Source: an uncultured Merdimonas sp. (GTDB lineage Bacteria > Bacillota > Clostridia > Lachnospirales > Lachnospiraceae). Taken from it: a stretch of DNA of 43,049 nucleotides. Each line of letters begins with the position of its first letter. Within the stretch, counting starts at the first letter, position 1. Below, one piece after another: positions 17,673-31,373 of the stretch. The notes beneath the pieces were generated by a model that was given only the letters and a program-made list of their open reading frames with translations, ran no database searches and was not told the DNA's origin. The position numbers and the translations under genes were made by a program. The stretch is from positions 1 to 43,049 of the forward strand of contig CALWGE010000020.1 of assembly GCA_944378225.1 (NCBI GenBank). Reading direction: 5' to 3'.

Positions 17673-18866
17673 TTAATAATAACGCCGTACAGAACGAATC
17701 GTCCGGTAAGTGGCCGTGCCTGTCTTGATTCCGGTAGCCTCTGTACTGGCATGTACAATTCTTCCTCCGCCCAGATAAATCGCCACATGGCCGCCGTAGT
17801 AAATAATATCTCCCGCCTGGGCCTCAGAGTAGCTGACCTCGCGTCCGGCACGTCCCTGCGCGTCTGATGTTCTGGGAATAGAAATACCGAAATGTGCCAT
17901 AACCGACTGGGTAAAGCCGGAACAGTCCGCTCCGTTTGTCAGGCTTGTCCCACCTAATACATAGGGATTCCCCACAAACTGCAGGGCATAATTGGCAATC
18001 GCTCTGCCGGTGGAGCTGTTGCCCGAAACGGATGTGGACCCGGACGAGGAACCGGAGGACGATCCGGAGGAAGAGCTTCCGGAAGAGCCTCCTGAAACAG
18101 TTGCAGACTCCTGTGTCTCCTTTTCCTTCGCTATTTTTTCAGCTTCCAGTCTCTTCAGTTCCTTCTGGCTTTTTTCCAGTTCTGCCCGGAATGTGGAAGC
18201 CTGCGCCTTGGCACTGGCAAGCTGGGATTCATAGTCTGCTTCTTCCGCTTTTTTCTCTGACAAAGATGACTGGACAGCAGCCTGTTCCTGCTCATACTCA
18301 GCTTCCAGAGCTTCCATATCCGCCTTTTCCTGTTCCAGCTGATCCAGAAGTTCCGCCACCTCTGCCTTCGTCTCCTGATATTCTTCCAGCATCTCGCGAT
18401 CCTTTGTCTGAATTTCCTTGGCAAAATCCGCACGGTTCAGGAAATCCGTAAAGCTGTCCGCCTGCAGAAAGAGTGTCAGATAATCCATATCTCCTTCTTC
18501 ATATATGTACTGAATACGAAGCTTCATAGCCTCATACTGTTCTTCTTCCTTCTGCTTCGCAGCCTCATAATCCACTTCTGCCTGCGCCAGTTCTTCCTCC
18601 TTCGCCGCCAGATCTGCTTCCAGAAGTTCAATATTCAACATCAGATCCACCAGCTCGGAATTCAGGGAATCAATCTCCGCCAGAACACTGTTTCTCTGGC
18701 TTTCAATGGACTTCATCTCCTGATTAATCGCATTCAGCTGTTTCTGCGCCTCCGCCTGTTTCTTCTTCAGCTCTGCTTCTGTCGCAAATGCCTGTATAGG
18801 GAAACACATGCTTGCCGCCAGTACCACTGCCAGAAAACGCCGGCTGATCTTTCTGAAATTATGCAT
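17673..18866 (-). CDS. Secreted coiled-coil NlpC/P60 peptidoglycan hydrolase (PcsB/CwlO-like)
   Basis: A 397-residue exported protein. It has a signal peptide at 1-29 ('VVLAASMCFPIQAFA'), a long coiled coil at about 30-250, a Ser/Gly linker at 258-285, and a C-terminal NlpC/P60 domain with catalytic Cys315 ('NGADCSGF') and His360 ('YGGHVAIYLGGG'). The family cleaves peptidoglycan stem peptides. In PcsB/CwlO the coiled coil is the part controlled by FtsEX, suggesting a role in cell elongation or separation; ftsEX is not in the window. Single-gene unit with its own promoter and terminator. Confidence 0.94.
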   Translation of the reverse strand: MHNFRKISRRFLAVVLAASMCFPIQAFATEAELKKKQAEAQKQLNAINQEMKSIESQRNSVLAEIDSLNSELVDLMLNIELLEADLAAKEEELAQAEVDYEAAKQKEEEQYEAMKLRIQYIYEEGDMDYLTLFLQADSFTDFLNRADFAKEIQTKDREMLEEYQETKAEVAELLDQLEQEKADMEALEAEYEQEQAAVQSSLSEKKAEEADYESQLASAKAQASTFRAELEKSQKELKRLEAEKIAKEKETQESATVSGGSSGSSSSGSSSGSSSGSTSVSGNSSTGRAIANYALQFVGNPYVLGGTSLTNGADCSGFTQSVMAHFGISIPRTSDAQGRAGREVSYSEAQAGDIIYYGGHVAIYLGGGRIVHASTEATGIKTGTATYRTIRSVRRYY

Positions 18867-18943
18867 AAAATTCTCTCCGCTTCTGAATATAATTTTCTCT
18901 GATATATTTCAACTGCAACCGTACAGTTTACAAATTTATATCT

Positions 18944-18972
18944 ATTATATCTGTTAATTCGAGCTTTTTCAA
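18944..18972 (-). promoter_or_regulatory. Promoter of the NlpC/P60 gene
   Basis: On the minus strand TTGAAA (18967-18972), a 17-bp spacer and a perfect TATAAT (18944-18949) lie 77 bp before the start codon. The leader between them contains a small AACTG/CAGTT hairpin. Confidence 0.75.
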
Positions 18973-19043
18973 GTGAATTTGCATATTTATGTGAACCTTT
19001 TCCTGCCATTTTTCCCGCTGCCCGATTCCCTGTTCTTTTACAG

Positions 19044-19098
19044 AAAAAAAGGCGCACAGAACACAGGTAACTTTCATTTCCCTGCGCTCCCGTGCGCC
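19044..19098 (-). terminator. Terminator of the thioredoxin-hydrogenase-yfcE operon
   Basis: GGCGCAC (19051-19057) pairs with GTGCGCC (19092-19098) across a long loop, and seven T residues follow on the minus strand. It lies 38 bp after the yfcE stop codon. Confidence 0.72.
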
Positions 19099-19136
19099 CC
19101 ATTCTGTTTCCGTCCGTTCTTGCAGGCAGTTCTGCC

Positions 19137-19688
19137 TTACATATCTTTCATTTCCCAGGTAAGCTTCACTTCTCCGTCCAGATCCTTCCAGACAAATGTA
19201 CGGTCTTCCAGGATCAGATAACCATGCCAGCTGTTCTCTTTGGGAATAGATACAGACCCCGGATTCAGATACGTATACTGCTCCGTCTCATGGCATACCG
19301 GCACATGTGTATGTCCGTGCAGCAGAATATCTCCCTTTTTCAGCATTGGAAGATTTTTTTCATGAAACACATGTCCGTGAGTGGCAAAAATCATATGGTC
19401 ATTCAGATAAAGAATCGCATACTCCGCCATCACAGGAAACTCCAGCACCATCTGATCCACCTCTGTGTCGCAGTTTCCGCGTACGCAGAGAATTTCTTCC
19501 TTTCTGGGGTTCAACATGGAGATAACCTCCTTGGGCGCATAATCCCTGGGCAAATCATTACGTGGTCCATGGTAAAGAATATCTCCCAGAAGCAGAAGCT
19601 TCTGCGCTCCCTCTCTGTCATAGGCTTCCAGCAGTTTTCTGCAGTAGTACGCAGAGCCGTGAATATCGGATGCAATCATCAGTTTCAT
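19137..19688 (-). CDS. yfcE: YfcE-type metallophosphodiesterase
   Basis: A 183-residue calcineurin-like phosphoesterase with every family metal motif: 'ASDIHGS' (7-13), 'LLLGDIL', 'VRGNCDTEVD', 'ATHGHV' and 'LLHGHTHVP'. E. coli YfcE hydrolyses model phosphodiesters; its true substrate is not known. The start codon follows the hydrogenase stop directly (GAATAAATG), so it is translated from the same transcript. No functional link between the two is established. Confidence 0.93.
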   Translation of the reverse strand: MKLMIASDIHGSAYYCRKLLEAYDREGAQKLLLLGDILYHGPRNDLPRDYAPKEVISMLNPRKEEILCVRGNCDTEVDQMVLEFPVMAEYAILYLNDHMIFATHGHVFHEKNLPMLKKGDILLHGHTHVPVCHETEQYTYLNPGSVSIPKENSWHGYLILEDRTFVWKDLDGEVKLTWEMKDM

Positions 19689-21200
19689 TTATTCTTCCTC
19701 CAGACTCTTCAGTATATCTTTATAATCACTGGAAAGAACGCCTTTATTCCCGGCTTTCTTCATCAGCATCTTAACCTGTCCCTTCGCTTTGGACGGACTC
19801 TGCAGAATACCTGCGCCTCCGACACAGCCGCCGGGGCATGCCATACCTTCCAGTAGATAACCGTCATACGTTCCCTTTTTAGCCTCATCCAGCATGGCCC
19901 GGCATTCCCGCAGTCCCTCCGCGTTCATGACCATGACCTCCCGCTCCGTATCAAGCTCTTTAATGCATTTCACCACCACACCCGCCACTCCGCCGCTGAC
20001 TGCGAATCCGCGTCCGTCAGCACTGGAACCTGACAGGTTGTCCGTGCCGGTAATCTCTGTAAAATCAATTCCCTTTGCCTCAAACATGCCCATGACTTCT
20101 TCAAACGTCAGAACAAAATCCACATCACTGCGAATATCTGCACGGCTGGCCTCCAGCTTCTTGGCTGAGCAGGGACCTATAAACACAACCTTGCTGCCGG
20201 GATGTTTCTTCTTAATGAGCCGTCCGGTAAGCACCATGGGCGTCAGCGCCATGGAAATGCATTTTGCAAAATCCGGATAAAGCATTTTTGCCATCTCGGA
20301 CCATGCAGGGCAGCAGGATGTTCCCATGAAGGGCAGCCTGTCCGGCACCTCATTCATGAAGTCATGCGCTTCCTCGATCGTACACAGATCAGCGCCTACC
20401 GCCACTTCAATCACATCCTCAAACCCAAGCAGCTGGAAAGCCTTCCTTACTTTTTCCGGCGGAAGCTCCTTTCCCCACTGGCCCACGAAGGCCGGCGCCA
20501 GGGCCGCATATACCGGAGTGTCGCTTTTAATCGCATGAATAGCCTGGAAAATCTGGCTCTTATCCGCAATCGCTCCAAAGGGACAGTTTACCAGACACAT
20601 TCCGCAGGATACGCATTTATCATAATCAATATCTGCACGGCCCAGCTCATCTGTACGAATGGCATCCACGCCGCAGGCCTTTGCGCAGGGCCGCTCCAGC
20701 TTCTGAATGGCTCCGTAAGGACAGGCTGAAATACAACGGCCGCACTTAATGCATTTTTCCTGATCAATGACAGATTTTCCATTTACAATGGAAATCGCAT
20801 CTTTCGGGCAGACCTCCTTACAGGGATGCGCAAGACAGCCCTGACAGGAATCGGTGACCCGCACCTCATTATCCGGGCAGGCGTGGCAGGCAAATTTAAT
20901 AATATTTACCAGGGGCGGATCGTAATACTTCTCCGCAATGGCGCTTTCCTCAATTCCCTGAGAAACCGGCGCATGCTCTGTCATCTTGCGGAGCGGCAGG
21001 CCAATGGCCAGACGAAGCCGCTCTTCCACAATCGCTCTTTCCAGGAATACACTTTCCCGATATGTCGCCACCTCACCCGGAATGATTTTATACGGGATGT
21101 TCAGAATCCGTGAATAATCCCCGCCTTCATATGCAAGCCGCGCAACTTCTGTAAATACTTTCTGGCGAATCTCAACGATATTTGTATAGATTCCTCTCAT
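19689..21200 (-). CDS. [FeFe] hydrogenase, monomeric (group B-like)
   Basis: A 503-residue protein. The N-terminal about 95 residues are helical. A Cys-rich ferredoxin region follows with sets at 119-131, 150-160 and 196-206 (further Cys at 172-176), then the H-cluster domain with its three motifs: 'TSCCPAW' (294-300), 'IGPCSAKKLE' (341-350) and 'EGMACPGGCVGGAG' (451-464). All Cys ligands of the H-cluster are present; the first motif has Ala instead of the usual Gly. The protein lacks the N-terminal [2Fe-2S] domain of group A enzymes and looks like group B, whose physiological role is poorly known and probably ferredoxin-linked. Its start overlaps the stop of the preceding flavoprotein gene (ATGA). 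No maturase genes (hydEFG) are in the window. Confidence 0.9.
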   Translation of the reverse strand: MRGIYTNIVEIRQKVFTEVARLAYEGGDYSRILNIPYKIIPGEVATYRESVFLERAIVEERLRLAIGLPLRKMTEHAPVSQGIEESAIAEKYYDPPLVNIIKFACHACPDNEVRVTDSCQGCLAHPCKEVCPKDAISIVNGKSVIDQEKCIKCGRCISACPYGAIQKLERPCAKACGVDAIRTDELGRADIDYDKCVSCGMCLVNCPFGAIADKSQIFQAIHAIKSDTPVYAALAPAFVGQWGKELPPEKVRKAFQLLGFEDVIEVAVGADLCTIEEAHDFMNEVPDRLPFMGTSCCPAWSEMAKMLYPDFAKCISMALTPMVLTGRLIKKKHPGSKVVFIGPCSAKKLEASRADIRSDVDFVLTFEEVMGMFEAKGIDFTEITGTDNLSGSSADGRGFAVSGGVAGVVVKCIKELDTEREVMVMNAEGLRECRAMLDEAKKGTYDGYLLEGMACPGGCVGGAGILQSPSKAKGQVKMLMKKAGNKGVLSSDYKDILKSLEEE

Positions 21201-22063
21201 CCGTCTCTCCTCACAAATTTAATCATACTCATAGCTGCCTTTGCGCCTTCCCCTACTGCAGTGGAAATCTGAAGAAGGCCTCCGGTACAGTCTCCGGCCG
21301 CATAAAGTCCCGGAACATTGGTGGCCATCGTTTCATCCACCTGAATACTGCGCCCGTCTGTGAGCGCACCCACCTTCCGGGCCAGATCCACAGCCCCGGC
21401 GCTTCCAAGAGCCACAAAGAGTCCGTCTGTTTCCAGACTGCTGCCGTCCTCGAAAGTAACTCCGCAGACTGCATCTTCCCCATCCACGGAACGAATCTTT
21501 TTCGTAATTACCGGAACGCCTTCCGGAGCTTTGGCAAGAAATTCTTTTCCATCTGTCAGAATCACAGCAGAACCTGCCACTGGAAGCAGCTGGCTCAGTT
21601 CATGCACAGCGTACTCCTCATTTCCCAGAACGGCTACCTTCCGTCCCCGGTAAAAGAAAGCGTCACAGATGGCACAGTAGCTCACGCCATGGCCTTCCAG
21701 CTCTGCAAGACCTCTGATGTCTGCTTTTTTTCTGGATGTACCGGTAGCCAGAAGCACAGCCTTCGCCTGATAATTTCCCTGCCGTCCCTCCAGCACGAAT
21801 CCCTGATTCCATGATATATGAAAAATCTCATCTGTTATCAGCTCTGCTCCCAGACTTCTTGCCTGAATCTTTGTATTCTCCACCAGCTCGCAGCCGGAAA
21901 TAGGCTCTGCGAGGCCAAAGTAATTTTCAATTTTCTCTGCCTTCGCAAGGGCTCCCTGATCTTTTCCAATCACAAGCGTACGCAGATTTGCGCGGCTGGT
22001 ATAGAGGGCTGCCGAAAGTCCTGCCGGACCGCTGCCCACTATGATAATATCATACTCTGACAT
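21197..22063 (-). CDS. Thioredoxin-reductase-like flavoprotein lacking NADPH motifs
   Basis: A 288-residue class II flavin oxidoreductase. It has FAD motif 'GSGPAG' (10-15), redox pair 'CAICD' (Cys130/Cys133) and C-terminal FAD motif 'GLYAAGDCTGG'. In the domain that normally binds NADPH, the usual glycine-rich GGGxSAxEE is replaced by 'LGNEEYAVHE' (146-155), and the HRRxxxR phosphate-binding set by 'TDGKEFLAK' (170-178). Loss of these motifs is known from pyridine-nucleotide-independent, ferredoxin-dependent flavin thioredoxin reductases of clostridia. Together with thioredoxin upstream and a [FeFe] hydrogenase overlapping downstream, a ferredoxin-fed reductase is the best inference. An ordinary NADPH-dependent TrxR is less likely. 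Confidence 0.85.
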   Translation of the reverse strand: MSEYDIIIVGSGPAGLSAALYTSRANLRTLVIGKDQGALAKAEKIENYFGLAEPISGCELVENTKIQARSLGAELITDEIFHISWNQGFVLEGRQGNYQAKAVLLATGTSRKKADIRGLAELEGHGVSYCAICDAFFYRGRKVAVLGNEEYAVHELSQLLPVAGSAVILTDGKEFLAKAPEGVPVITKKIRSVDGEDAVCGVTFEDGSSLETDGLFVALGSAGAVDLARKVGALTDGRSIQVDETMATNVPGLYAAGDCTGGLLQISTAVGEGAKAAMSMIKFVRRDG

Positions 22064-22089
22064 ATTCCCCTCTCCAAATCCTGTGTTTT

Positions 22090-22401
22090 TCAGATTCCCA
22101 GAAGCTTTTTCAGTCCTTCTTTTGACTGAAGACCCACAGCGGAAGCCGCAATTTTTCCATCCTTAAATACCAGCAGTGTGGGAATGCTTGCCACACCGTA
22201 TCTCTGCGCCAGACTTATATTCTCATCCACATTCAGTTTTCCGAATTTCACACCCTCTGTCTCTTCTGCCAGCTCATCAACGATAGGTCCCTGCATCTGA
22301 CAGGGTCCGCACCACACTGCCCAGAAATCCACCAGTACCGGCACTTCTGAATTCAATACCTCTGTTTCAAAATTCTTTTCTGTAATTGTCAGCACTGCCA
22401 T
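22090..22401 (-). CDS. trxA: Thioredoxin
   Basis: A 103-residue classical thioredoxin with the active site 'WCGPC' (Cys31, Cys34), the buried 'VDF' and the cis-proline 'ASIPTLLVF'. The start at 22401 has AGGAGGAG 8 nt upstream; a TTG two codons earlier is less likely. It lies 26 bp before the reductase-like gene and is the first gene of a trxA-reductase-hydrogenase-yfcE operon, so it is the probable substrate of that reductase. Confidence 0.95.
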   Translation of the reverse strand: MAVLTITEKNFETEVLNSEVPVLVDFWAVWCGPCQMQGPIVDELAEETEGVKFGKLNVDENISLAQRYGVASIPTLLVFKDGKIAASAVGLQSKEGLKKLLGI

Positions 22402-22525
22402 AAACAATTCTCCTCCTTACATTTCTGTCGTTGTCTTACTCTATCATATTTTCTCTGAAAAATCTACGGGACATTCCAATGATTCTGAAAAAATGCACAG
22501 ACTGTAAATTCATTCTGTTTCAGAC

Positions 22526-23641
22526 TCACTCCGCATCCATCATCAGCAGCTTTACGAGCTCTGTAACTGTTTCCAGCTCTGACACTGTCGTATACTCGCT
22601 GCAGGAATGAACCTGCTCCATAGCGCTTGCCAGTACCAGACCGCTGATTCCATGTAAAGCAAGATTGCTCTGATCGCTGCCGCCGAAGGTGGGCTCCAGT
22701 GTTCCGGGCAGGCCAAGACGCGCGCAGGCACGGCGGAAACGGCTCACAGACGGATGGCTTTCCGGCACCTGATAGGCGTGAAGCGGAACTGTATACCGCA
22801 CCTCACAGCTGCCCCCGGCCTTCTCTGCTTCTTCCCTGAAGATTGCTTCTATCTTTTTCATCTGGGCTTCTGCGCGCTCATGGGAGTAGCTTCGCACCTC
22901 TCCCATCAGAAAACAGGTGTCCGGTACAATATTGGTGGCTTTTACGCCGCCTTCCACATGACCGATGTTAACTGTCATGTCTTCTCCGACTCTGCCCAGC
23001 TCCATACGCGCCACCGCCCGGGCCGCCGCCGCAATGGCATGCACCCCTTTTTCGGGAGCAAAGCCTGCATGAGCCGCCTTTCCGTGAACCGTAATCTGAA
23101 AATCCACCAGTGAGGGCGCCTGTACAGCCGCCCGGCCCAGAGAACCGCTCAAATCCAGGATATAGGATTCTTTCGCCTTTATATCCGAAAAATCAAAAAC
23201 CGCGCTTCCCCTGAGATGACGTTCCTCCCCGATAAAGAAAATGAGTTCCAGGCTTCGGCAGTCTTTTCCTTCTTCCTTTATCTCAGTGAGAGCTTCCAGA
23301 ATCGCAGCCGTACCTGCCATACAGTCGGCCCCCAGTACCGTCGTTCCGTCACTGGTAATTCTGCCGTCTTCATGAAGTACAGCCTTCTTTCCCCGGGCAG
23401 GCTCCACCGTGTCCATATGCGCAGAAAAAAGAATCGGTTCTCCCGGCAGTGTACCCTCCCGGTACGCATAGAGATTTCCTGCCGTCCCTCCATAATATTC
23501 TCCAGCCCTGTCTTCTGAAACCGCAAATCCCAGTTCTTTCAGGCAAATAGTCAGCCGGTCTGCCATTTTCCTCTCATCAAATGACGGAGAATCAATGGAG
23601 ACTAGCTCCTGAAACATCTTTACCAGTCTTTCTGTATTCAT
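22526..23641 (-). CDS. M20 family metallopeptidase (PepT-like)
   Basis: A 371-residue peptidase with metal ligands in 'SAHMDTVEP' (His75, Asp77), 'LGADCMAG' (Asp106), 'FIGEERHLRGS' (Glu139/Glu140), a dimerisation domain ('KAAHAGFAPEKGVHAI') and a final His in 'EQVHSCSEY'. Family proteins usually read GADDKAG at the bridging Asp; here the next residues are Cys-Met instead of Asp-Lys. The ATG at 23641 begins the family's usual N terminus; the longer frame to 23719 is Cys-rich and unlike the family. It probably removes residues from small peptides, tripeptidase T being the closest well-known relative. Single gene. Confidence 0.88.
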   Translation of the reverse strand: MNTERLVKMFQELVSIDSPSFDERKMADRLTICLKELGFAVSEDRAGEYYGGTAGNLYAYREGTLPGEPILFSAHMDTVEPARGKKAVLHEDGRITSDGTTVLGADCMAGTAAILEALTEIKEEGKDCRSLELIFFIGEERHLRGSAVFDFSDIKAKESYILDLSGSLGRAAVQAPSLVDFQITVHGKAAHAGFAPEKGVHAIAAAARAVARMELGRVGEDMTVNIGHVEGGVKATNIVPDTCFLMGEVRSYSHERAEAQMKKIEAIFREEAEKAGGSCEVRYTVPLHAYQVPESHPSVSRFRRACARLGLPGTLEPTFGGSDQSNLALHGISGLVLASAMEQVHSCSEYTTVSELETVTELVKLLMMDAE

Positions 23642-27846: not shown

Positions 27847-28659
27847 TTATGACCCGGACCTGGATTCCATACAGCTTTTTTCAGCCTCTTTTACATGGTC
27901 CAGATAAATTTTCCTCACGCCGGGATACTCTCCCAGACCTTTCATCTTACAGACTACCTCATAGCCCTCCCGCTCAAACTGACTTCTCCAGGAGTCCTCA
28001 TCCTGCCCGGACATATCATGAATGGCATGATCGCCTGCCACCACCATAAAGGGAGCCAGAATCAGACGCTTTGGTCCCAGGGCGCGAATCTGCTTTTTCA
28101 GAGATTCCATGGAAGGATAGGCTTCCACAGTTCCAAGAAATACCCGGGAATATCCCTGATCCTTAAATGTGTAATCAAGGGCTGCATAAATGGCATTGGC
28201 ATAATGAGTGGTACCGTGTCCCATCAGCACCAGAGCCTCTTCCTCTGTCATATCTGAAAACTCTTCCATCACGGCCTCAATCACAGCCAGGTTATCTTCC
28301 TGTGTGGTCAGAAGCGGATCTCCAAAGGCTACGCTTTCAAAAGCATCCTGTCTCTTCAGCACATCTTCTTTCATCAGATCATTTTCCACGCCGTTAATTA
28401 CATGTGTGGGCTGCACGATGAGCTCTCTGATTCCGTCTGCTATCATCTGTTCCACGGCTTCCGCCACGGTAAACACCTTCACTCCGTCCCGGCGCAGCAG
28501 TTTTGAGATAATCATTTTGCTGGTCCAGGCCCGGTAAATCCGGTAATCCGGATAAGCCTTCTCAATATCTGCCTCGATCCGGTCAATTGTCTTCTCTCTG
28601 GTCCGGTGAAAACTGGTGCCAAAGCTCACCACCAGAATCGCTTTCCTGCTATCTGTCAT
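27847..28659 (-). CDS. cbiK: Sirohydrochlorin cobaltochelatase
   Basis: A 270-residue class II chelatase that inserts Co2+ into sirohydrochlorin in the anaerobic (early-cobalt) B12 pathway. Metal-binding histidines are in 'LMGHGTTHYAN' (His148) and 'VAGDHAIHDMSG' (His211, His214), matching the two key His of Salmonella CbiK. The N terminus 'ILVVSFGTSFHRTREKTI' is typical. The ATG at 28659 has AAGGAG 7 nt upstream; a longer frame to 28698 has none. No other cbi genes are in the window. The next gene upstream is the DUF3786 gene, 63 bp away, so they may be cotranscribed. Confidence 0.95.
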   Translation of the reverse strand: MTDSRKAILVVSFGTSFHRTREKTIDRIEADIEKAYPDYRIYRAWTSKMIISKLLRRDGVKVFTVAEAVEQMIADGIRELIVQPTHVINGVENDLMKEDVLKRQDAFESVAFGDPLLTTQEDNLAVIEAVMEEFSDMTEEEALVLMGHGTTHYANAIYAALDYTFKDQGYSRVFLGTVEAYPSMESLKKQIRALGPKRLILAPFMVVAGDHAIHDMSGQDEDSWRSQFEREGYEVVCKMKGLGEYPGVRKIYLDHVKEAEKSCMESRSGS

Positions 28660-28722
28660 GTCGCTCTCCTTCTCTGCAGTTTCGTATCCGCTCTTCACGC
28701 GCGGTTTAAACTGAAGCCGATT

Positions 28723-29444: not shown

Positions 29445-31373
29445 CTATTCCTGCACAACTGACGGGAACAGACTGTTGTCTGTATGCGGCAGGAAACAGC
29501 AGGCTACAAATTCATCCATGTAACCCGGCTCTGTGGAAAGCTCCAGATAAGTCATATTCTGTGCCAGTTCATAAACCTTGCGCTCCGCTTTCGTGGAAAG
29601 CAGCATCGCATAGGCGCCGCACAGAGAAGAATTTCCGATATAGTGATAGCACTCCAGAGGAATATCCGGGAACATACCGATTCCCACTGCATTCTTCATA
29701 TTAATGCCGCTTCCGATTCCGCCTGCCACGAATACCTGCTCAATCATGCTGATATCGAAGTCCAGGGTATTCAGCATCGTACGGATGGCAGAGAAAATCG
29801 CTCCTTTGGCGCGGATAAAGTTATCGATATCCACCTCTGTAATCTCCACATCCTTTGCGGCGGCTGCCTCGGACTCAAAAGCCAGCACATAGCTTCCCAT
29901 TCCGTATGCATCGTGCTTAATCCGCTTTCCTTCCCGGATAAATTTACCCTTGGGGCTGATAATGCCGCAGCGGAACAACTCTGCGATCACGTCAATGATA
30001 CCGGATCCGCAAAGACCTACCGGCTTCTGTCCTTCCTCTCCGATAATGCGGAAAGAAGGCTCCATGGTTTCTTTATCAATGGTGCAGGCTTCGATTGCTC
30101 CGTCTGTAGCACGCATACCGCAGCTGATATCGCCGCCTTCAAACGCCGGACCTGCCGAGCAGGCACAGCTCATCATAAAGTCAGAGTTTCCAAATACCAG
30201 CTCTCCGTTCGTTCCCAGGTCAATGAAGAGAGAAAACTGAGACTGATTCCAGAGCATGCTTACCAGAGTACCTGCGGTAATATCGCCGCCCACATAGCTT
30301 CCGATATTCGGCGCCATAATAATATGAGCGTCCGGATGCACATTCAGATTAATGTCCGAAGCATAGAAGGAATTCGTCTTGAAGAAAGCCGGAATATACG
30401 GCTCCATACGCAGCGGATCTGCGTTAATTCCCATCAGCAGATGATTCATGGTAGAATTGCCTGCCACTGCCAGACGGAAAATATGACGCGGACTGATTCC
30501 GGCCGTCCTGCACATCTGCTGAATCATCGGATTCAGTGTCTCAGATACAATGGCATCCTGCAGTTTCTTCTGTCCGCCCGGTTTTGTGGACTCGATGATC
30601 CGGTTGATGACATCAGCTCCGAAACGAATCTGTCCGTTGCCGGCAGACGCCTTTGCCAGGATCTTTCCATTCGTCATATCCACAACCACAGCGGATACTG
30701 TCGTTGTACCGATATCCACAGCCAGACCGCCCACAATCAGATTCTCGTCTTTGCCGGATACCTCATAGACAAAGACATGGCTCTTTCCCTGGCTGACTAC
30801 ACACTGTACTTCAAAATTGCTGCTCCGCAGCACATCCGGCAGCCGGCGCAGCACAGAATAGGGTACACGGATATACTGAATACCGGTAGCCTCCTGCAGC
30901 GCACGGATCAGACGCTCAATATCCGGCATTGTATCTTCCAGGCTGGGCGGAGCCATCTTTACCTTAATGATATGAATATTGTTTTCCATGGGAAGTCCGG
31001 CTTCCTCTATTTTCTCCTTAGACTCGTCAAAAATCTGAATTTCCTCCGGAGAACTTAAATCAGCCACCTTCATACGGCTCTTATATGCAGATGCAATATC
31101 CGGAACCAGAATCTCCACGTCACCGGCTACCTGGCTGCAGCATGCCAGACGCCAGCCTTCCGCATACTCAGCATCGCTGATATGGCGGGTCTGTCTGGAA
31201 TCCAGTTTTCCGCTCAACAGTTTTACACGACATTTACCGCAGGAACCATTTCCCGAGCAAGGCGCGTCGATTACCACATTGGACTTGCGCGCAGTCTCCA
31301 GAAGATTTTCCCCTGTCATCGTCGATACCATCACCGGATCGCCGTTTTCAAATCGGAAAATTACATTTGCCAT
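29445..31373 (-). CDS. RACE-type corrinoid-activating [2Fe-2S]/ASKHA protein
   Basis: A 642-residue protein. An N-terminal [2Fe-2S] ferredoxin domain (1-95) has ligands in 'CSGNGSCGKC' (Cys39, 45, 48) and 'RLACCSQ' (Cys78). A linker (about 95-210) follows, then a large ASKHA ATPase-like domain beginning 'GGLAVDIGTTTVSAVVVDM', with 'FIDLGTNGELVFGN' and 'FVAGGIGSGINMKNAVGIGM'. RACE proteins use ATP to reduce inactive Co(II) corrinoid to Co(I) in methyltransferase systems. No corrinoid protein or methyltransferase gene is in the window. Upstream lies an unusually long leader. Confidence 0.92.
   Translation of the reverse strand: MANVIFRFENGDPVMVSTMTGENLLETARKSNVVIDAPCSGNGSCGKCRVKLLSGKLDSRQTRHISDAEYAEGWRLACCSQVAGDVEILVPDIASAYKSRMKVADLSSPEEIQIFDESKEKIEEAGLPMENNIHIIKVKMAPPSLEDTMPDIERLIRALQEATGIQYIRVPYSVLRRLPDVLRSSNFEVQCVVSQGKSHVFVYEVSGKDENLIVGGLAVDIGTTTVSAVVVDMTNGKILAKASAGNGQIRFGADVINRIIESTKPGGQKKLQDAIVSETLNPMIQQMCRTAGISPRHIFRLAVAGNSTMNHLLMGINADPLRMEPYIPAFFKTNSFYASDINLNVHPDAHIIMAPNIGSYVGGDITAGTLVSMLWNQSQFSLFIDLGTNGELVFGNSDFMMSCACSAGPAFEGGDISCGMRATDGAIEACTIDKETMEPSFRIIGEEGQKPVGLCGSGIIDVIAELFRCGIISPKGKFIREGKRIKHDAYGMGSYVLAFESEAAAAKDVEITEVDIDNFIRAKGAIFSAIRTMLNTLDFDISMIEQVFVAGGIGSGINMKNAVGIGMFPDIPLECYHYIGNSSLCGAYAMLLSTKAERKVYELAQNMTYLELSTEPGYMDEFVACCFLPHTDNSLFPSVVQE

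Follow-up and report, generated by a model that had tools for sequence, protein, structure and literature searches.

Does the overlap of a thioredoxin reductase gene with an [FeFe] hydrogenase gene mean that the two enzymes exchange electrons? The question is raised by a 43,049-nucleotide stretch of DNA from an uncultured Merdimonas sp., apparently a gut bacterium (contig CALWGE010000020.1; hereafter the window), in which a thioredoxin gene (trxA), a thioredoxin reductase-like gene, a gene for a group B [FeFe] hydrogenase (hydB) and a yfcE-like gene follow each other on the minus strand. The original prediction, made from the sequence alone, had proposed a route from H2 or ferredoxin to thioredoxin, or thiol control of the hydrogenase. 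The analysis favours, with moderate confidence, a different answer: two known modules were probably brought under one promoter by the recent loss of the promoter of hydB, with shared expression and perhaps a shared pool of reduced ferredoxin, and with no obligate path from one enzyme to the other. A reductase without NADPH motifs, a hydrogenase of group B and a probable single transcription unit were retained from the prediction, while the kinship with the clostridial ferredoxin-dependent reductases (FFTR) and the conservation of the gene pair had to be given up.

The thioredoxin gene occupies positions 22090-22401 with its ATG start at 22401, and its product carries a WCGPC site and scores 119 bits against TIGR01068 (cut-off 96.8). 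It is followed by the reductase gene (21197-22063, 288 aa), by hydB (19689-21200, 503 aa) and by the gene of a yfcE-like phosphodiesterase (19137-19688, 183 aa; NF006988 with 232 bits, cut-off 117; TIGR00040 with 88 bits, cut-off 56). Gaps of 26, -4 and 0 bp in this order confirm the tight packing that had been described. The stop codon of the reductase gene overlaps the start codon of hydB in an ATGA, and GAGGAGAG / GTGAGGAGAG precedes the hydB ATG. The claim of a coupled operon was upheld in the sense that the genes from trxA to yfcE probably form one transcription unit, as judged from their sequence. A terminator scan of positions 18600-22900 returned none, with 3.7 expected by chance.

The reductase was characterized by its motifs, its position in a tree and its predicted fold. 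The motif of flavin adenine dinucleotide (FAD) binding, GSGPAG, and the CAIC motif are both present. At the positions of the NADPH motifs GGGxSAxEE and HRRxxxR, the protein reads LGNEEYAVHE and TDGKEFL, respectively, with TDGK at the 2'-phosphate site, and the reported loss of both motifs was thus borne out. Its TIGR01292 score of 232 bits falls short of the cut-off (343). Among PDB sequences the best match was 5nii, the TRi enzyme of Desulfovibrio vulgaris (DvTRi; 224 bits, 44% identity over 289 positions). It was followed by 2q7v (167 bits, 37%), which carries both NADPH motifs (GGGDAAVEE, HRRDTL), by 6gnc (143 bits, 34%), by GvFFTR (5j60, 128 bits) and by 6gna (122 bits, 33%). In a tree of 30 rows, from which GvFFTR was left out, a clade of 22 rows (support 100/99) unites the window reductase with DvTRi and 20 relatives from the loci. 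The CaFFTR pair (6gna and 6gnc) branches separately (100/100), and the NADPH-type rows also fall outside the clade. The branch of DvTRi is long (1.85), so its position inside the clade is unsure. An AlphaFold2 model built from a 36-row alignment (mean pLDDT 84.7, pTM 0.72) was matched by Foldseek to 5nii at rank 1 (TM 0.87, root-mean-square deviation 2.9 Å), a match that the training of AlphaFold2 on 5nii may favour. The same model reached TM 0.68 with 6gna, 0.62 with 6gnc and about 0.56 with NADPH-type enzymes. Membership in the clostridial FFTR type, to which the original prediction had pointed, was rejected, given the separate branch of the FFTR pair and an identity of just 33-34%; sequence, tree and fold place the reductase with TRi.

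The TRi signature published in 2017 was compared in detail. The degenerate GGGxxAxE (here LGNEEYAVHE) and VSYCxxC with two following Phe (GVSYCAICDAFF) are found in the window. Instead of TQ/NGK, which replaces HRRD in TRi, the window has TDGK (D for Q/N), and the thioredoxin-contact motif G[R/K]G before VSYCxxC reads GHG (GHGVSYC). Because these two letters differ, the reductase was classified as TRi-like and not as a strict TRi. GHG, GKG and GRG all occur among its relatives. Across 81 reductase rows, CxxC was present in every one and HRR or GGG[NDS]SA in none. The published TQ/NGK motif was derived from 17 sequences and seems not to cover the breadth of the TRi-like clade, since T[ND]G occupies the 2'-phosphate site in 78 of the 81 rows and TNGK in only 11 (T-x-G-K in 19). 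In the 36 rows, S128, Y129, C130, C133, D134 and F136 are invariant and F137 is kept in at least 90%. With DvTRi the window reductase has in common the degeneration of both NADPH motifs and the blocks GVSYCxxCDxFFYRG and GDCTGGxLQ. By this kinship it is predicted to be a TRi-like, NAD(P)H-independent enzyme.

TRi of D. vulgaris is reported to be reduced by neither NADPH nor NADH and to reduce Trx1 once it has been artificially reduced (PMC5627308). According to the same report, the gene is oxygen-responsive and induced by air, a tri deletion mutant is diamide-sensitive, and the electron donor was still unidentified in 2017. Its authors argued from the sequence against ferredoxin as donor and named flavodoxin as a candidate (PMC5627308). 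Ferredoxin as donor of the window reductase is therefore possible, but it would not be a property inherited from the TRi family. The gene context differs too, as D. vulgaris tri is described as monocistronic (PMC5627308) whereas trxA and hydB adjoin the gene here. FFTR enzymes (CaFFTR; C. difficile TrxB1) resemble the window reductase in lacking the NAD(P)H motifs and in having FAD and CxxC. In C. difficile, trxB1 likewise lies in an operon with trxA1, which is described there without a hydrogenase gene (PMC10880999).

The hydrogenase looks like an ordinary group B enzyme. It scores 620 bits against TIGR04105 (cut-off 450) and carries TSCCPAW, GPCSAKKLE and EGMACPGGC, which confirms the earlier assignment and is what it has in common with group B hydrogenases in general (TIGR04105; the Bacteroides enzymes of PMC12578642; CpIII). 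What sets it apart is the position of its gene downstream of a thioredoxin system and the lack of a separate promoter-like site. The role of group B enzymes had been called unknown, a statement that is out of date: for gut bacteria, H2 evolution and reoxidation of ferredoxin reduced by PFOR are reported (PMC12578642). The HydB alignment has 42 rows from fewer genomes, since the gene of the window stands in it as L081 and L087 and G223 contributes a partial copy, L134. TSCCPAW was found in 36 of the 42 rows, EGMACPGGC in 35, and the cysteines of the H-cluster motifs (296, 297, 344, 455 and 459) in all. The same genome encodes the maturase HydF (557 bits, above the cut-off; of the maturases, the search covered HydF) and two more [FeFe] hydrogenases, one above the group A6 cut-off and the other a fusion of a group A hydrogenase with a C-terminal rubrerythrin. 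This fusion lies in one frame (L085, 613-2673, minus strand, G000:C62; NF045767 with 277 bits, cut-off 200) and resembles the published H2-to-H2O2 chimera of C. perfringens.

Sixteen genomes of the genus were compared, and all of them carry the reductase gene and hydB. The latter lies directly behind the reductase gene in eight genomes, 0.2-1.3 kb behind it in five and elsewhere in three. The genomes fall into two halves. In the near half (reductase identity 81-100%), hydB is the next gene in 8/8, with match ends 0-76 bp apart. In the distant half (70-73%), it is found on the same strand 0.2-1.3 kb behind in 5/8; in G266 and G267 it is on a different contig, and in G268 it lies 36 kb upstream. 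Since pepT in front of trxA is likewise kept in 8/8 near-half genomes, the gene order of such close relatives says little about function. In one locus of the distant half (L007, 6839-7744), a CbiK-like gene was noticed between the reductase gene and hydB (231 bits, under the cut-off of 400), and a similar stretch was seen by eye at about 6940-7740 of L010. The window has its own CbiK-like gene at 27847-28698, 5-6 kb before trxA and near the gene of an AcsV corrinoid regeneration protein (29445-31373; 994 bits).

The two halves differ in the DNA before hydB. The promoter-like pattern TTCACA-N17-TA, which was defined with five of the eight distant sequences already known, precedes hydB in 8/8 genomes of the distant half versus 0/8 of the near half. 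A longer AT-rich block, CTTAATTTTT / CTTAATTTTTTATGAAAATTRTTCACA, lies over this site in seven of the eight distant genomes (L204-L211; pattern search) and might contain an operator. A general promoter scan of the 180 nt before hydB gave no site in the window and four near-half relatives and one weak site in L003; save for the latter, no replacement promoter-like site was found within 200-300 nt before near-half hydB. As, L003 apart, nothing stands in for the missing promoter-like site, co-expression of hydB with the genes in front of it is likely forced in the near half. From these sequences we infer that hydB formerly lay near trxA and the reductase gene with its own promoter, which was then lost in the half of the genus to which the window belongs.

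The presumed promoter region of the operon is marked by a conserved element 5' of trxA (GATTTTTCAGARAAAATATGRTARAGT, 22438-22464, minus strand), which aligned with small differences in 8/8 near-half genomes. No further copy was found in its own genome at up to three mismatches, the element matching only itself. It makes a poor sigma-70 site, and a similar stretch, TTTTTTCAGAA, was seen by eye about 30 bp upstream of it in six of the eight near-half genomes.

Conservation of the gene pair was then followed beyond the genus. Scanning 84,980 genomes yielded 322 confirmed candidate relatives of the reductase, of which the best 80 loci were kept, many of them stopping early at contig ends. In eight of these best 80 of 322 loci hydB lies behind the reductase gene, always at 71-89% identity; for two further loci in this band (L008, L009), hydB lies at another place of the genome. 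At or below 58% identity, hydB adjoins the reductase gene in 0/70 loci. In one of these, L036, a different hydrogenase is encoded about 4 kb away, a distant match of about 100 bits that is counted as such in the 9/80 loci with the hydrogenase cluster. In a sample of the family, the reductase was detected at E 1e-50 in 17/250 genomes, and 2/18 loci show hydB, both from the own genus; the best 30 hydB loci of the sample gave a reductase within 1.5 kb in the same two genomes. In a sample of the class (E 1e-60 in 75/391 genomes), hydB occurred in only the window's own locus among 30 read. Four drafts with TRi-like genes (G090, G092, G154, G204) gave no hydB match at E 1e-30 (drafts 87-91% complete; best first-look candidates scored). 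Outside the genus, the pair was thus not seen in the readable family and class loci. The prediction had made conservation beyond close relatives a mark of the proposed link, and the neighbourhood survey found the pair in the own genus only. The functional link between reductase and hydrogenase is weakened by this absence.

On the favoured explanation, an NAD(P)H-independent thioredoxin system (TrxA with the TRi-like reductase) and a ferredoxin-oxidising, H2-evolving HydB would have been joined in one unit within one half of a single genus, through the loss of the promoter of hydB. Reduced ferredoxin or flavodoxin, as low-potential carrier, would supply electrons to the reductase, which would hand them on through FAD and CAIC to TrxA, a branch that would serve disulfide repair under oxidative stress. 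HydB would discharge the same reduced ferredoxin pool as H2, and shared expression would scale both branches together. The arrangement hints at hydrogen-driven protein repair, and only hints, since the hydrogenase was found at that place in one small group only.

Several observations weigh against promoter loss as the whole explanation. The near-half block is kept in 8/8 genomes, with the 4-bp overlap in three, and selection for coupling may lie behind this. The promoters were recognized by consensus, and just three distant genomes make up an independent test of the pattern, because five had been seen beforehand. A looser scan gave weak promoter-like sites within the window reductase gene at 21838-21811 (9/12) and, at the gene start, 22076-22049, with eight promoter-like sites in the whole region versus 3.9 expected; an internal promoter is possible in view of these sites. 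Finally, the same genome encodes an NADPH-type thioredoxin reductase (L082, with GGGNSA and HRR) next to a thioredoxin gene, which leaves the need for a second thioredoxin system unexplained. Also encoded there are another reductase, adjacent to a thioredoxin frame (L083), and a relative without CxxC (L084).

The two units could also have been fused by a rearrangement that is neutral, with neither expression nor electron flow functionally coupled. The equal conservation of pepT before trxA in the eight near genomes agrees with such a neutral juxtaposition, as does the location of hydB away from the reductase gene in 3/16 members of the genus, all of which have both genes. It is nevertheless considered rather unlikely, since co-expression is likely forced in the near half, where only L003 has a weak replacement site, and the order is kept in 8/8. 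Another reading is the thiol control that had been proposed, or a repair of the hydrogenase, in which TrxA reduced by the reductase would reduce a disulfide of HydB or help HydB after oxygen exposure. The shared operon and the oxygen response reported for D. vulgaris tri (PMC5627308) are in its favour, but the HydB cysteines show no trace of it. In the 25 cysteine columns of the 42 rows, 23 are occupied in 41 or 42 rows, and 314 and 412, with 28 and 25 rows, are far commoner than linked rows. None of the columns is private to genomes with the linked reductase gene, and thiol control is judged distinctly improbable. Still less credit is given to an unusual use of NADPH or NADH by the reductase. 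The TIGR01292 score, albeit under the cut-off, and the higher rank of the motif-bearing 2q7v over the FFTR structures would agree with it; against it stand the loss of both nucleotide motifs and the reported inertness of TRi, the closest solved relative, to NAD(P)H (PMC5627308).

The remaining alternative reverses the direction of the hydrogenase: HydB would oxidise H2, and the electrons would reach the FAD of the reductase, and then TrxA, either directly from the ferredoxin-like domain of HydB or by way of free ferredoxin. The overlapping genes and the missing promoter-like site of near-half hydB are consistent with this, as is the vacant place of a donor for TRi in the 2017 description (PMC5627308). 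A hydrogenase and PFOR have been suggested as enzymes that might regenerate the ferredoxin supplying an FFTR in C. difficile spores (PMC10880999), and a C. autoethanogenum group B mutant is reported to grow poorly on H2-rich gas (PMC9431212). Reported potentials of about -414 mV for H2 (PMC9304861) and about -290 mV for thioredoxin (PMC12796991) would allow the flow. H2-driven peroxide reduction has been published for the hydrogenase-rubrerythrin fusion (PMC11926857), which is a precedent for H2 as reductant in the oxidative defence of one clostridium and has a similar counterpart in the own genome (L085). It differs in being one fused protein, whereas separate genes and a group B hydrogenase are found here. 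H2-driven reduction is, however, considered unlikely, as the pair is private to one genus in the loci read, TRi-like genes occur in the four drafts without a hydB match, and an extreme bias towards H2 production is reported for the group B enzyme CpIII (PMC9431212). If it were true, a physiological donor would be known for the first time for TRi-like enzymes, and group B hydrogenases would have an additional role. A literature search by title and abstract, with subscription literature mostly outside its scope, found no thioredoxin reductase-hydrogenase operon and no H2-linked thioredoxin reduction, the passage on C. difficile spores (PMC10880999) being the nearest.

The interest that remains under the reading of promoter loss is that of a testable setting for the donor of TRi-like reductases, a question that concerns many anaerobes because relatives of the reductase were found in 75/391 genomes of the class sample. 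With a candidate donor route encoded beside a TRi-like reductase, the operon could serve as a compact test system. The genus adds a natural contrast, one half being with and the other half without a promoter-like site before hydB.

The neighbourhood of the reductase gene in the 80 loci contains several recurrent clusters, listed when present in at least 10 loci, with antisense-looking frames dropped by eye: trxA relatives (48 loci, 46 cluster members within 1.5 kb), polysaccharide deacetylase (16), ABC-transporter ATPase (13; identified by eye from the N-terminal residues), cation ATPase (12) and a Crp-family regulator (11; e.g. the frame at 2241-2936 of L021). None of these recurrent neighbours in the 80 loci names an electron donor. 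In another genus of the family (L154, G013), the order trxA-reductase-yfcE-nlpC was seen without hydB, which lies about 430 kb away on the same contig. In L189, L197 and, as two frames, L183, the reductase gene lies directly behind a thioredoxin-thioredoxin reductase fusion gene, an arrangement that would be consistent with a function in disulfide or peroxide defence.

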